Positions 11,944-44,660 of a stretch of DNA of 64,000 nt are shown here, piece by piece. The notes beneath the pieces were generated by a model. It saw nothing but the letters and a program-made list of their open reading frames with translations. It was not told the origin of the DNA and ran no database searches. The first letter of the stretch is position 1; every line of letters begins with the position of its first letter. The translations under genes and the position numbers were made by a program. Source of the DNA: Cryobacterium cheniae (GTDB lineage: Bacteria > Actinomycetota > Actinomycetes > Actinomycetales > Microbacteriaceae); assembly GCF_004403395.1 (NCBI RefSeq), contig NZ_SOGN01000035.1, positions 62,001 through 126,000 on the forward strand, in the 5' to 3' direction.

Positions 11944-12024
11944 GCATAACTCCTGCAAATTCCTCCGTTTTGGCCGAATTCAGGCCTCATACGGGACACG
12001 GCGCAGAATTTGCAGGAGTTATGC
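11944..12024. repeat. Palindromic dispersed element, copy 1
   Basis: An 81-bp element bounded by perfect 19-bp inverted arms: the left arm begins GCATAACTCCTGCAA at 11944 and its exact reverse complement ends at 12024. The 43-bp interior is not palindromic and contains GAATTCAGG. A second element with the same arms and the same interior word is at 36112-36205. It sits between the divergent tadA and tRNA-Leu genes. It encodes nothing visible and is too long and too loosely looped for a normal terminator. It is best described as a MITE- or REP-like non-coding repeat. Confidence 0.85.
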
Positions 12025-34841: not shown

Positions 34842-36041
34842 ATGACGATCTCCGGAGCCTGGCGACGCACGGCCCGCGGGGCCGGTCTGCTCGCAGCGGA
34901 CGGTACCGTTGCCGCGAGTATTTTCGCCGAGATGAGTGCCCTCGCCGTGCGCACCGGCGCCATCAACCTGGGTCAGGGATTCCCGGACGAGGACGGCCCC
35001 GCCGAGGTGCTCGACGCGGCCCGCCAGGCGATCGCCGACGGGGTGAACCAATACCCGCCGGGGCGCGGCCTGCCCGTGCTGCGGGAGGCCATTGCTCGTC
35101 ACCAGCACCGGTTCTACGGTCTGTCCGTCGATCCGGACACCGAGGTTCTGGTGACGGCCGGCGCCACGGAGGCGCTGGCGGCGACCATTCTCGCGCTGCT
35201 CGAACCCGGCGACGAGGTGGTCACGCTCGAGCCGTTCTATGACGCGTACGGCGGCCTGATCGCGCTGGGCGGCGGCATCCACCGCACGGTGCGGCTGCGA
35301 GCGCCCGACTTCCAGCCGGACCCGGACGAGCTGCGCGCCGTGATCACCGACCGCACCCGGCTGATCATCGTGAACAATCCGCACAACCCCACCGGTGCCG
35401 TGCTGCCCCGTGAGACTCTGGAACTCATCGTGTCCCTCGCGCACCGCCACGACGCTCTCATCGTGACCGACGAAGTCTACGAGCACCTCACCTTCGGCGT
35501 CCCCCACGTGCCGGTCGCAATGATTCCGGGTGCGAGCGAGCGCACCATCACGATCTCCTCGGGCGGGAAGACGTTCAACACCACCGGTTGGAAGGTCGGC
35601 TGGCTCACCGCCCCGGCCGCCCTGGTCACCGCGATCCTGGCCGTGAAGCAGTTCCTCACCTATGTGAACGGCGCCCCGTTCCAGCCGGCGATCGCACGGG
35701 GTCTCGACCTGCCCGACAGCTTCTATAGCGGCATCGCCGCCGACCTCCGGGCCAGGCGCGACGTGCTCGAGAGCGGCCTGACCGCGGCTGGATTCACGGT
35801 CAGCCGCCCCCAGGGGTCGTATTTCATCGTGGCGGATGCCGCGCCGCTCGGCTACACGGACGGCGCCGAGTTCTGCCGGGTGCTGCCCGACTTGGCCGGG
35901 GTGGTGGCGGTTCCGATCGGAGCGTTCTGCTCCGCCGCGAACCGGCCCGAGTACGCCTCGCTGGTGCGTTTCGCCTACTGCAAGAAGGTGGACGTCCTCG
36001 AGCGCGCCGCCGCACAGCTGGCCGGCATCACCGCCCGGTAG
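34842..36041 (+). CDS. Class I/II pyridoxal-phosphate aminotransferase
   Basis: A 399-residue fold type I aminotransferase. The PLP lysine is in 'ISSGGKTFNTTGWKVGW', with 'NNPHNPTGAVLPRETLELIV' (Asn-Pro substrate/PLP contacts) and 'LIVTDEVYEHL' (Asp to the pyridine). 'NLGQGFPDEDGPAEVLDAAR' and 'GVNQYPPGRGLPVLREAIAR' suggest the methionine/kynurenine aminotransferase subgroup. The substrate remains a guess. Preceded by no operon partner; the lipoprotein gene is divergent. Confidence 0.92.
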   Translation: MTISGAWRRTARGAGLLAADGTVAASIFAEMSALAVRTGAINLGQGFPDEDGPAEVLDAARQAIADGVNQYPPGRGLPVLREAIARHQHRFYGLSVDPDTEVLVTAGATEALAATILALLEPGDEVVTLEPFYDAYGGLIALGGGIHRTVRLRAPDFQPDPDELRAVITDRTRLIIVNNPHNPTGAVLPRETLELIVSLAHRHDALIVTDEVYEHLTFGVPHVPVAMIPGASERTITISSGGKTFNTTGWKVGWLTAPAALVTAILAVKQFLTYVNGAPFQPAIARGLDLPDSFYSGIAADLRARRDVLESGLTAAGFTVSRPQGSYFIVADAAPLGYTDGAEFCRVLPDLAGVVAVPIGAFCSAANRPEYASLVRFAYCKKVDVLERAAAQLAGITAR

Positions 36042-36111
36042 CCGCCGCTCCGGCCTCCGCGCAACGAGACGCCGGGCCCTGCTCCGCAACCGCACTTCTT
36101 CGGTCACACAA

Positions 36112-36205
36112 TGCATAACTCCTGCAATTTGTCGGCTGCGACATCCACAGCCCCGGAATTCAGGGGGTGGTGCGCGAGCGCGTCACAAATTGCAGGAGTT
36201 ATGCA
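36112..36205. repeat. Palindromic dispersed element, copy 2
   Basis: A 94-bp element with perfect 21-bp inverted arms: the left begins TGCATAACTCCTGCAA at 36112 and the complement ends at 36205. The 52-bp interior contains GAATTCAGG at the centre, the same nine bases as copy 1 at 11944-12024. It lies in the convergent gap between the aminotransferase and old yellow enzyme genes. If transcribed it would fold into a long hairpin from either side. Confidence 0.85.
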
Positions 36206-36254
36206 CCGACCAAACCGGAAAGAGGGCCGGGCTGGTGCTGGGCTGCAGGGGTGC

Positions 36255-37328
36255 CTAGTGCGCCAGGGCGGGGTAGTCGGTGTAGCCCTCGGCTCCGGCT
36301 CCGTAGAAGGTGAGCGGGTCGGGCGCGTTGAGCGGCAGGTCCTTGAGCCAACGCGCCACGAGGTCGGGGTTGGCGATCACGGCACGACCCACGACGACCG
36401 CATCCGCCAGGTCGTCGGCGATGATGGCCATCGCTTCGTCCCGGCCGGTGACCTCGCCGAAGCCGCTGTTGACCAGGAGCGGGCCGCCGAAACGGGTACG
36501 CAGCTGCTGCACGAGTTCTCCGGCCGGCTCGCGGTGCAGGATGCTCAGATAGGCCAGCCCCAGCGGGGCGAGTGCGTCGGCCAAGGCGCCGTAGGTGGCC
36601 AGCACGTCGGCGGCATCCGTTTCGAGGGCGTCCTGGATGTTGTGCTCCGGGGAAATCCGGATGCCGACGCGGCCGGCGCCGATGGCTTCGGCCACCGCGG
36701 TGACGACCTCGACGACGAAGCGGGCCCGGTTCTGCGGGGAGCCGCCGTAGCTGTCGTCGCGCTGGTTGGAGGCCGGCGAGAGGAACTCGTGCAGGAGGTA
36801 ACCGTTCGCGGAGTGGATTTCCACACCGTCGAGTCCGGCGGCGATGGCGTTGCGGGAGGCCTGCACGAAGTCCGCGATCACGCCGGGGAGCTCGTCCGAG
36901 GTGAGGGCGTGCGGCACCGGGTAGGTGACTTTTCCCTCGTAGGTGCGGGTCTCGCCGTTGATGGCGATGGCGCTGGGGGCCACGACCTCGCGGCCGCCGT
37001 TCGTGCCCTCATGGGTGACCCGGCCGGCATGCATGACCTGGGCGACCAGGCGCCCTCCGGCCGAGTGCACGGCGGCGGCGACGTTCGTCCAACCGGCGAT
37101 CTGCTCGGGCGTGACCAGTCCGGGCTGGCCGGGGAAGCCCTGGCCGGCGTGGCTGGGGTAGGTTCCCTCGGTCACGATCAGTCCGAGGGATGCCCGCTGC
37201 TTGTAGTGCTCGACGACGAGAGGACCGGGCACGCCCTCGATTCCGGACCGCACCCGGGTCAGCGGCGCCATGACGAGCCGGTTGGGCAGTTCCAGGTCAC
37301 CGAGGGACAACGGGGAGAAAAGATTCAC
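36255..37328 (-). CDS. Alkene reductase, old yellow enzyme family
   Basis: A 357-residue FMN-dependent ene-reductase (NemA/OYE type) reducing activated C=C bonds or nitro compounds with NADPH. Start: GTG 37328 gives 'VNLFSPLSLGDLELPNRLVM', the family N-terminus. Other marks are 'RASLGLIVTEGTYPSHAGQG', 'LDGVEIHSANGYLLHEFLSP' with the active-site His/Asn, and 'RVGIRISPEHNI'. The open frame continues upstream without homology. Divergent from the hydrolase gene. Confidence 0.94.
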   Translation of the reverse strand: MNLFSPLSLGDLELPNRLVMAPLTRVRSGIEGVPGPLVVEHYKQRASLGLIVTEGTYPSHAGQGFPGQPGLVTPEQIAGWTNVAAAVHSAGGRLVAQVMHAGRVTHEGTNGGREVVAPSAIAINGETRTYEGKVTYPVPHALTSDELPGVIADFVQASRNAIAAGLDGVEIHSANGYLLHEFLSPASNQRDDSYGGSPQNRARFVVEVVTAVAEAIGAGRVGIRISPEHNIQDALETDAADVLATYGALADALAPLGLAYLSILHREPAGELVQQLRTRFGGPLLVNSGFGEVTGRDEAMAIIADDLADAVVVGRAVIANPDLVARWLKDLPLNAPDPLTFYGAGAEGYTDYPALAH

Positions 37329-42557: not shown

Positions 42558-43268
42558 ATGGCGGTGGATGCGGCAATGAACACCCGGCTTGAAGCGGCCC
42601 TGGCCGTGTCGACGGTCATCTTCGCCTTGCGGTCGGATCCGGGATCCGGGCTCTCGTCCCTGTGGCTGCCGCTCGTGCGCCGCACCCGGGACCCCTACCT
42701 CGGCCGGTGGGCGCTGCCGGGCGGCGGTCTGCCGACGGACGAGGGACTGGCCGGCGCGGCCGCGCGTGCGCTGCGCGAGACCACGGGACTCACCCCGAAA
42801 TACCTCGAGCAGCTCTACACGTTCGGGGACCCGGGCCGCTCCCCCGGCGGCCGGGTCGTCTCGGTCGTCTATTGGGCGCTCGTCGAGTCCGGTGAGGCGG
42901 CACTGGCGGTCGAGGACGAGAACGTGCACTGGTTCCCGGCCGACCACCTGCCGCCGCTGGCCTTCGACCACAACCGCATCGTCGAGTACGCTCTCTGGCG
43001 CCTGCGCACCAAGGTGGAGTACTCCCGCATCGCGCACGCGTTCCTGGGCGAGACCTTCACGCTCGCCCAGCTGCGTGAAGTTCACGAGGCCGTGCTGCAG
43101 AAGGCCCTGGACCCGGCCAATTTCCGCCGCACGGTCGAATCGTCGGGCACCGTGGTCGACACCGGCCGGCGCGTGGCCGGCGTGCCGCACCGGCCGCCCC
43201 GCCTCTACCGTTACAACGATTCCGTTCCCGCCGCCGAGCCAGGTGCGCTCGAGCCGGCCATCGGCTGA
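42558..43268 (+). CDS. nrtR: NrtR-type Nudix regulator of NAD biosynthesis
   Basis: A 236-residue protein: N-terminal Nudix-like domain ('VSTVIFALRSDPGSGLSSLW', 'GRWALPGGGLPTDEGLAGAA' followed by 'ALRETTGL') and a C-terminal winged helix ('HAFLGETFTLAQLREVHEAV' ... 'LDPANFRRTVESSGTVVDTG'). In the known family the Nudix domain has lost hydrolysis and senses ADP-ribose, releasing NAD genes from repression. The Nudix box here is GGGLPTDEGLAGAAARALRE, lacking a Glu of the canonical REUXEE. It directly precedes nadA. ATG 42558 or 42576 are both possible. Confidence 0.9.
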   Translation: MAVDAAMNTRLEAALAVSTVIFALRSDPGSGLSSLWLPLVRRTRDPYLGRWALPGGGLPTDEGLAGAAARALRETTGLTPKYLEQLYTFGDPGRSPGGRVVSVVYWALVESGEAALAVEDENVHWFPADHLPPLAFDHNRIVEYALWRLRTKVEYSRIAHAFLGETFTLAQLREVHEAVLQKALDPANFRRTVESSGTVVDTGRRVAGVPHRPPRLYRYNDSVPAAEPGALEPAIG

Positions 43269-43349: not shown

Positions 43350-44660
43350 ATGTCCATCTCATCGGTCGACCAGACCATTCGGCTCATCAGCACGGGAGCG
43401 GCCGCCGGCAGCACCTGCAGCCCCGACCTGCTCACCGCTCCGTGGGAATTCGATTCCGGCGCGCCGGGCTACGGCCCGGGGTCGTCGATGGGCGACGTCA
43501 TCCCCACCGGGTCACCGCGTCAGGGCGAACTGCCAGAGGTCTACCGACGCGCGTCGACGGAGGAACTCGGTGACCGCATCCGTGCCGCCAAGGCCACGCT
43601 CGGCGACCGGGTCGTGATTCTCGGGCACTTCTACCAGCGTGAGGAGGTTGTGCAGCACGCGGACTTCGTGGGCGACTCGTTCCAGCTGGCGCAGGCCACG
43701 AAGAGCCGGCCGGATGCCGCGGCGATCATTTTCTGCGGCGTGCACTTCATGGCCGAAACCGCTGACCTGCTTTCGACGCCGGAGCAAGCGGTCATCCTGC
43801 CCAACCTCGCGGCCGGCTGCTCGATGGCCGATATGGCCGACATCGACTCCGTCACCGACTGCTGGGAACAGCTCGAGGACCTTTACGGCACGGAGCCGGG
43901 CGCCGACGGCCGCGTGCCCGTAATCCCGGTCACCTATATGAACTCCTCGGCCGCGCTGAAAGCGTTCTGCGGCGAGCACGGCGGCATCGTCTGCACCTCC
44001 TCCAATGCGGTGGCCGTTCTCGAGTGGGCCTTCGCCCGCGGCCGCCGCGTGCTGTTCTTCCCCGACCAGCACCTCGGCCGCAACACCGCCAAAGCGATGG
44101 GGGTGCCGCTCGAGCAGATGCCGATGTGGAACCCGCGCAATGCCCTCGGCGGCAACACGGCCGAGGAGCTCGAGGCCGCCCAGGTGGTGCTCTGGCACGG
44201 GTTCTGCAGCGTGCACAAGCGCTTCACGGTGGACCAGATCACCGCGGCCCGCGAGTCTCACCCCGGAGTGCGCGTGATCGTGCACCCGGAGTGCCCGATG
44301 AGCGTCGTCGACGCCGCCGACTCCTCCGGCTCCACCGACTTCATCAAGAAGGCCATCGAGGCGGCCCCGGCCGGGTCCACGTTCGCCATCGGCACCGAGA
44401 TCAACCTTGTGCAGCGCCTCGCCGCCGCGCACCCCGAGCACACCATCTTCTGCCTCGACCCGGTGGTCTGCCCCTGCTCCACGATGTACCGCATCCATTC
44501 GGGCTACCTGGCCTGGGTGCTCGAGGCACTGGTCGGCACCGCGGATCGCGCGCCCGAAGTACTCAATCGCATCCAGGTGCCGCACGAGGTCGCCGGCAAC
44601 GCCCGCATCGCTCTTGAACGGATGCTCGCCGCGAAGCCGCCCGCGCCGGTCGAGGCCTGA
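43350..44660 (+). CDS. nadA: Quinolinate synthase A
   Basis: Condenses iminoaspartate with dihydroxyacetone phosphate using a [4Fe-4S] cluster. The 436-residue product (normal for actinobacteria) has cysteines in 'IFCGVHFMAETADLLS', 'VIVHPECPMSVVDAAD' and 'LDPVVCPCSTMYRIHSGYLA', which are the family's cluster ligands. 'LGHFYQREEVVQHADFVGDS' is the substrate region. GAGGAG lies before ATG 43350. First enzyme gene in a nadABC-iscS operon. Confidence 0.97.
   Translation: MSISSVDQTIRLISTGAAAGSTCSPDLLTAPWEFDSGAPGYGPGSSMGDVIPTGSPRQGELPEVYRRASTEELGDRIRAAKATLGDRVVILGHFYQREEVVQHADFVGDSFQLAQATKSRPDAAAIIFCGVHFMAETADLLSTPEQAVILPNLAAGCSMADMADIDSVTDCWEQLEDLYGTEPGADGRVPVIPVTYMNSSAALKAFCGEHGGIVCTSSNAVAVLEWAFARGRRVLFFPDQHLGRNTAKAMGVPLEQMPMWNPRNALGGNTAEELEAAQVVLWHGFCSVHKRFTVDQITAARESHPGVRVIVHPECPMSVVDAADSSGSTDFIKKAIEAAPAGSTFAIGTEINLVQRLAAAHPEHTIFCLDPVVCPCSTMYRIHSGYLAWVLEALVGTADRAPEVLNRIQVPHEVAGNARIALERMLAAKPPAPVEA

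Follow-up and report, generated by a model that had tools for sequence, protein, structure and literature searches.

Dispersed intergenic palindromes of Cryobacterium as probable cognate sites of an AbiEi-like protein with a predicted Vsr/EDxHD-type nuclease domain

Between a T2SSE-type ATPase gene and a tRNA-Leu gene of Cryobacterium cheniae lies a perfect palindrome whose arms recur within the 64,000 nucleotides analysed here (the window), which raises the question of what kind of element this is and which protein may act on it. Element 1 (11944..12024, no strand assigned; 81-bp class, arm type A1) is composed of a left arm of 19 bp (11944..11962, plus strand), an interior of 43 bp (11963..12005, no strand assigned) and a right arm of 19 bp (12006..12024, minus strand), and the analysis confirmed the perfect arms that a sequence-only reading of this DNA had described. 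As that reading had also indicated, a second element with shared arms is located some 24 kb away: element 2 (36113..36204, no strand assigned; 92-bp class, arm type A1) lies at a distance of 24.2 kb, has 20-bp arms at 36113..36132 (plus strand) and 36185..36204 (minus strand), shares 15 bp of its arms with element 1 and contains a conserved centre at 36151..36166 (no strand assigned; class consensus CCSCGkgATTcCGSGG). The arm 15-mer matches the window four times, always exactly, as compared to 0.55 matches expected by chance with up to three mismatches, and four matches were reached in 0 of 100 shuffles, i.e. the recurrence is beyond chance, as had been claimed. The proposed divergent intergenic setting holds for element 1, which is flanked by the ATPase gene on the minus strand, a gene compatible with a Tad locus, and the tRNA-Leu gene on the plus strand, but not for element 2, which is flanked by convergent genes. 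An Rfam scan of the window returned tRNAs only.

To call element 1 one of a dispersed pair was true but too modest. This genome (G000) contains 49 arms that match with one mismatch or none, as compared to 0 for a reversed control pattern, and 24 paired elements (arms with at most two mismatches) of 81 bp (6), 92 bp (9) or 93 bp (9), two of which are those of the window. Relatives carry them as well, since the A1 arm with at most one mismatch is present in 52 of 57 Cryobacterium genomes. The exact arm is found in 9 of 299 genomes of Microbacteriaceae, belonging to 2 of 85 genera, and the matches listed in a scan of the whole collection include Cryobacterium, some Lacisediminihabitans, Microbacterium, Rhodoglobus and Glaciihabitans, and one Microbacteriaceae MAG. 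Carriage by phages was considered and dropped, as viral_contigs holds 0 exact matches to the pair patterns of A1 or of a second arm type, A2. The literature searched, in which subscription papers are few, contains neither the 15-mer arm nor a report on palindromic intergenic repeats in Cryobacterium; it likewise holds no link between repetitive extragenic palindromic elements and Vsr endonuclease and no mention of AbiEi together with DUF559, and DUF559 and palindromes co-occur only in papers that are unrelated by title.

A likely partner of the elements became apparent upon clustering of the genes near them, as one gene recurs between two elements both at orthologous loci and in a different genus. 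In this genome the gene (contig C40, 43186-44070) is bordered by an element at 43017-43109 and another at 44151-44243. Grouped by score to one query, homologs of at least 65% identity (22 genomes) were called type 1 and those of 49-59% (15 genomes) type 2, and flanks were searched within 700 bp of the gene with up to three arm mismatches. In 21 of 22 genomes the type 1 gene lies between A1 elements, and in the remaining one it has an A1 element on one side; the type 2 gene lies between A2 elements in 11 of 15 genomes and has such an element on a single side in three, the last having a one-sided A3-like match (L357). The type 1 gene occupies one syntenic locus in 20 of the 22 genomes, as judged by the downstream flank. 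Where genes are located at other places (L314, L322 and, for type 2, L323 and L324), matching elements are still found on both sides, as if gene and elements moved jointly. A stop-containing, truncated remnant of the gene (L359, G026:C15:44293-44535) has an A1 element on one side.

A strict automatic flank test was positive at 25 of 38 type 1 and type 2 loci (one genome being represented twice) and detected shared palindromes at 13 of 32 other paralog loci (retrieved lower-scoring matches, one a truncated copy), 19 of which fail, and at 4 of 29 homologs from other genera or families (the best match of 29 of the 43 other genomes with a match), 25 of which fail. Among control genes 3 of 397 were positive, after removal of eight family genes that had been found inside the control set and were all positive. 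Two control genes from outside the nuclease family (L152, L170) lie between A1 elements, nevertheless. At L392 and L395, two of the distant loci, the palindrome on one side of the gene is nearly identical to that on the other, which hints at recent copying that stayed local, comparable to the local tandem duplicates in Cryobacterium.

Arm counts follow the cognate gene. The median number of A1 arms is 36 in genomes with type 1 (n=22) vs 13 in those without (n=35; p=8e-6). For A2 arms, the 15 genomes with type 2 have a median of 27 and the 42 others one of 1 (p=9e-5). Kinship is ignored in both comparisons. A2 arms show no association with the type 1 gene (p=0.70). Genomes with type 2 contain fewer A1 arms than the others (8 vs 23.5, p=0.005, kinship ignored). 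Moreover, 491 of 795 A1 arms are exact with type 1 and 207 of 469 without, the exact-arm share per genome differing modestly (median 0.54, n=21, vs 0.44, n=25; p=0.011, kinship ignored; genomes with at least six arms). Against a pairing of gene and site argue one type 1 genome with just 3 A1 arms (G054), two type 2 genomes with 0 and 1 A2 arms (G022, G046) and the fact that, of the 21 out of 57 genomes that contain neither gene, 19 still hold 1-34 A1 arms.

Which kind of protein does the gene encode? The predicted structure (295 aa, mean pLDDT 89.1, pTM 0.84) is most similar to the AbiEi antitoxin (6y8q, E 7e-5), the sole Foldseek match at E <= 0.001, ranks 2 and 3 being mitoribosomal proteins. 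The C-terminal part matches Vsr (1cw0, E 0.011) and the catalytic domain of the EDxHD homing endonuclease I-Bth0305I (3r3p, TMt 0.80, E 0.047). E195, D222, H239 and D248 are shared by all 22 aligned proteins, whatever their type, and were assigned to the EDxHD motif by their order rather than by superposition. Pfam yields MTES_1575/DUF559 and AbiEi_4, mostly under cut-off, and leaves two of the proteins without a match, PADLOC gives weak AbiEi matches in 6 of 6 proteins and NCBIfam assigns no family to 6 proteins. A novel Vsr-type REase domain is described for MTES_1575 in a passage of PMC3710099. The partner is likely a protein of ~295 aa in which, according to the structural model, an AbiEi-like winged helix is combined with a Vsr/EDxHD-like nuclease domain.

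Both halves of the predicted protein resemble known proteins. According to the relevant sections of PMC7319586, the DNA sites of AbiEi and Rv2827c are inverted repeats of 23 bp, and AbiEi induces a bend in its promoter. The Cryobacterium system resembles such operators in its N-terminal fold and in its inverted sites of ~20 bp, with DNA bending being a property of AbiEi (PMC7319586, same sections), but differs in the fused nuclease domain and in arms that are 66-88 bp apart and dispersed genome-wide. I-Bth0305I, as outlined in part of PMC3943268, forms dimers on a target that is nearly 60 bp long; the C-terminal fold of the predicted protein is similar to that of I-Bth0305I and Vsr, whereas dozens of presumed sites in its own genome set it apart. 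One may ask whether the elements are enlarged autoregulatory operators of an AbiEi-like repressor that were spread by chance, as they adjoin the gene and as the AbiEi family represses its own promoter via inverted repeats (PMC7319586, same sections). However, dozens of copies are distant from the gene, often near 3' ends, and its downstream side is occupied as well, and we regard this explanation as improbable. We consider it probable instead that the palindromes are the dispersed cognate sites of this usually single-copy AbiEi-type winged-helix protein with its Vsr/EDxHD-type endonuclease domain.

The architecture of the elements is consistent with such a role. Two inverted arms of ~15-18 bp are held at a fixed spacing, resulting in lengths of 81, 92/93 and, rarely, 102/103 bp, i.e. 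whole helical turns. Of 197 distinct A1 elements among the matches listed, 191 measure 80-82 bp (32) or 90-94 bp (159) and the other six 83, 96, 96, 102, 103 and 123 bp, counts that are conditioned on a range of 70-100 bp as the set was drawn largely from loci chosen by a pattern of that length. The whole-genome arm lists of G000 and G009, from which only listed places were paired, are free of this preselection, and in G009 all 24 exact-arm pairs are 81, 92 or 93 bp long (50 of 52 exact arms listed). Canonical spacing was found in 57 of 58 cases in type-1-positive vs 23 of 30 in type-1-negative genomes (p=0.002, kinship ignored; 3 and 5 genomes, places listed). In the 92-bp consensus a 16-bp centre is separated from each arm by ~19 free bases, the spacers of this class being near random (mean identity 0.31 vs 0.28 in shuffles). 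The interior of element 1 had been termed unique; as a class, the interiors of 27 distinct 81-bp A1 copies are not random: A/T triplets recur from arm to arm with a period of 10.0 bp (power 6.84, null 99% 1.48). The same period is observed for A/T triplets in the 77-bp class of family B, a further palindrome family (power 6.30, null 1.17). This phasing is a DNA-bending pattern and points to bent double-stranded DNA that would present two sites on one face.

An RNA-level function, i.e. bidirectional transcription terminators or hairpins, was weighed against this protein-site reading. The predicted RNA fold of the elements is strong (z -6.6 and -8.8), but the interior of A1 elements was tested for base-pair covariation and none was found; at centre positions 41/52 of the 92-bp class C and G vary independently. 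An RNA or cruciform model was dropped since the covariation test gave no support, and from its sequence pattern the element looks like a double-stranded protein site rather than a hairpin. Positions 1 and 3 outside the arms pair above expectation (z 6.8 and 4.3), which is not fully explained. At the element 2 locus a classical terminator is present in 1 of 12 element-bearing orthologs, where it is located inside the element, vs 8 of 17 orthologs without the element (ortholog panels comprise loci from 30 of 57 genomes per place, 29 of which were readable here). In the wider set of convergent gaps, however, intrinsic terminators are more, not fewer, with an element (16 of 56 vs 6 of 52, uncorrected for the greater length), and replacement of terminators by elements, striking at the element 2 locus, was dropped in view of this opposite trend. 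Moreover, terminators have no need for a fixed length or sequence and would leave the link to the nuclease gene unexplained. Terminator function, which the sequence-only reading had named as a finding that would count against it, is unsupported genome-wide and in our view unlikely. At the convergent site of element 2 (36041-36255; orthologous loci L256-L261, L263 and L270) a classical terminator hairpin often takes the place of the element in species that lack it.

Among short repeats tied to a single-copy enzyme, REPIN-RAYT serves as the paradigm. Passages of PMC3116915 describe REPINs as short extragenic sequences whose two inverted ends, invariant and 16 bp long, are kept at a set distance, with a less conserved spacer and occurrence in tandem clusters, and state that each RAYT gene has a cognate REP cluster beside it. 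The Cryobacterium elements are alike in having inverted conserved ends at a fixed distance, a variable spacer and an intergenic location, and also in their tandem copies and in the cognate elements that adjoin the partner gene. They are unlike in that their arms are complementary but their interiors do not covary, in that their lengths fall into helical-turn classes and in that their partner is AbiEi/EDxHD-like. Y1_Tnp, the family of the REP-associated tyrosine transposase RAYT, was detected in 0 of 57 Cryobacterium genomes and in 5 of 14 control genomes. The initial view of the palindromes as MITE/REP-like elements or binding sites is thus borne out insofar as they are numerous, intergenic and tied to a dedicated gene, but the RAYT or transposase that had been guessed as partner was wrong, an AbiEi/EDxHD-like nuclease gene being found instead. 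The simplest account is an element-nuclease pair that works like REPIN-RAYT without being a member, its enzyme being unrelated.

The history of the elements bears on how they may have been distributed. When the interiors of 237 A1 and A2 elements from Cryobacterium were compared, 43 of 44 similar pairs turned out to be orthologs or local duplicates, and no recent dispersed copying was found, a point against the mechanism proposed below. Similarly, the 39 family B elements in the retrieved regions of G007 contain a sole clearly similar pair, its members being 1.9 kb apart. For a family B element that is present in G027 but not in G000 or G009, no close donor exists within G027 (the best candidate reaches 81% over 76 bp, arms included), and its best match elsewhere (84%, G029:C69) is probably its ortholog by position. 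These data also concern the idea of an ordinary MITE or REP moved by a transposase or RAYT, which would fit the terminal inverted repeats, the dispersed copies, the tandem duplicates and the differing presence between species. Interiors are not shared between unrelated loci, which disfavours an ordinary MITE, no target-site duplication was seen at the single well-resolved empty site, which is one of family B, and the absence of Y1_Tnp, in a search limited to this transposase family, speaks against it as well; we consider it very improbable. In G007 (L275, G007:C13:14717-14931) five A2-like arms in one orientation, exactly 50 bp apart, are located beside a normal element.

Arms may change in place, as orthologous loci demonstrate. 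In close species pairs arms and length are mostly kept, while the neighbouring sequence contains indels. At the site that corresponds to element 1, adjoining the start of the same gene, five of six genomes carry an element, with A1 arms in G000 and G009, both of which have the type 1 gene, and A2 arms in G030, G007 and G029, which have type 2; G027, also type 2, has no element there. The orthologs of element 2 have A1 arms in G009 and, on both sides, GGCTAACTCCTG (A3) in G030 and G007, and their interiors are related to that in the window (z 10.0, 6.0 and 3.8 for G009, G030 and G007, respectively, the last being weak alone as two G009 elements at different places reached z 4.6). G030, G007 and G029 may be close kin, in which case the A2 and A3 states need not be independent. 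In G003, which lacks the type 1 gene, the element at locus 2 is short of 8 interior bases and has undergone an arm change; G003 and G048, which have type 2 only, retain A1 elements at the element 2 locus.

Element architecture, copy number, intergenic placement, the flanking of the gene, the matching of arm and protein types and the arm change in place are read from the sequence. From these we infer binding of the protein to DNA, cleavage and the spreading or mobility of elements, and propose the following scheme. Two or more copies of the protein would bind both inverted arms through their winged helices, with the whole-turn spacing and the 10-bp phasing of A/T triplets (replaced by the conserved centre in the 92-bp class) allowing the DNA to bend so that bound proteins can meet. 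The nuclease domains would then nick or cut the element or DNA close to it. The parent unit would be the gene plus its two flanking elements, and the scattered elements would be non-autonomous derivatives that spread rarely by nuclease-triggered copying and subsequently drifted, with arms and spacing kept. With ~38 bp between arm and centre, a monomer of 295 aa would have far to reach on DNA that is not bent, which argues against the scheme.

Placement is strictly intergenic, i.e. 0 of 197 A1 elements lie inside genes as predicted by an in-house gene caller. The neighbouring genes are convergent for 67 elements, co-directed for 88 and divergent for 33 (188 classified), and 9 elements are at locus edges. 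The arm motif contains GCATAA, and neighbouring genes often end on its TAA (10 left and 10 right genes at the 67 convergent sites). This avoidance of genes and the frequent convergent position could also belong to a domesticated host system, i.e. a chromosome-organising, insulating or regulatory network free of selfish spread in which the nuclease fold serves binding or rare nicking. Such a system would also agree with the one syntenic locus of most type 1 genes, with orthologous sites whose arms and spacing are conserved in close pairs and with the lack of recent dispersed copying. By contrast, the invariance of the catalytic-type residues in proteins of all types, the absence of both genes from more than a third of the genomes, the large range of family B and the coexistence of several paralogs in one genome, each with its own palindromes, do not fit it well, and we hold this possibility to be a serious one, albeit with a less than even chance. 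The cognate elements of the nuclease may thus be selfish or of use to the host.

The type 1 and type 2 proteins are not the only ones with palindromes of their own. Repeated between genomes, TTCCGAATTCAGG is found on both sides of the paralogs L331, L333 and L336, and family B, AATTCGACGGAGATT, on both sides of the paralog L346 in this genome and on one side of L364; weaker palindromes at paralog flanks are AATGCAGGATGC, AACTGCGGAGA and TATGCCGGTAAA. Family B is present in 29 of 57 genomes with 0 to 296 arms (40 in this genome, the maximum being that of G027). In the regions retrieved from G007 all 39 of its elements are 77/78 bp long, with 54-104 bp being allowed, and its interiors share some pattern (mean identity 0.395 vs 0.257 in shuffles). 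Based on these families we tentatively suggest, as a possibility of nearly even standing, an actinomycete class of repeat-nuclease systems in which AbiEi/EDxHD-like paralogs have their own phased palindromes around the gene and genome-wide, arms co-evolve in place, synapsis involves bent or wrapped DNA, and elements persist or spread without a transposase.

If true, the pairing with an unrelated nuclease would imply that repeat-enzyme partnerships evolved more than once, and it would provide a role for uncharacterised actinobacterial proteins, namely DUF559/MTES_1575-like ones with an AbiEi-like domain. Additionally, the protein types and their arms would constitute natural matched sets in which the co-change of DNA-binding specificity and sites can be studied. 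Further palindromes were encountered along the way. Some distant homologs (flanks of L375, L378, L390 and L396) have one-sided palindromes whose arms contain a CACAA-like core, an echo of GCA(T/C)AACTCC. At the element 2 locus in L253 and L266 a different palindrome, TGCGGACAAAGTACCTT, and its inverted partner occupy the same intergenic place, and in two species (L101, 2697-2802, and L124, 584-688) arms of TACCCAAACGATTGGGT enclose an interior of 71-72 bp.
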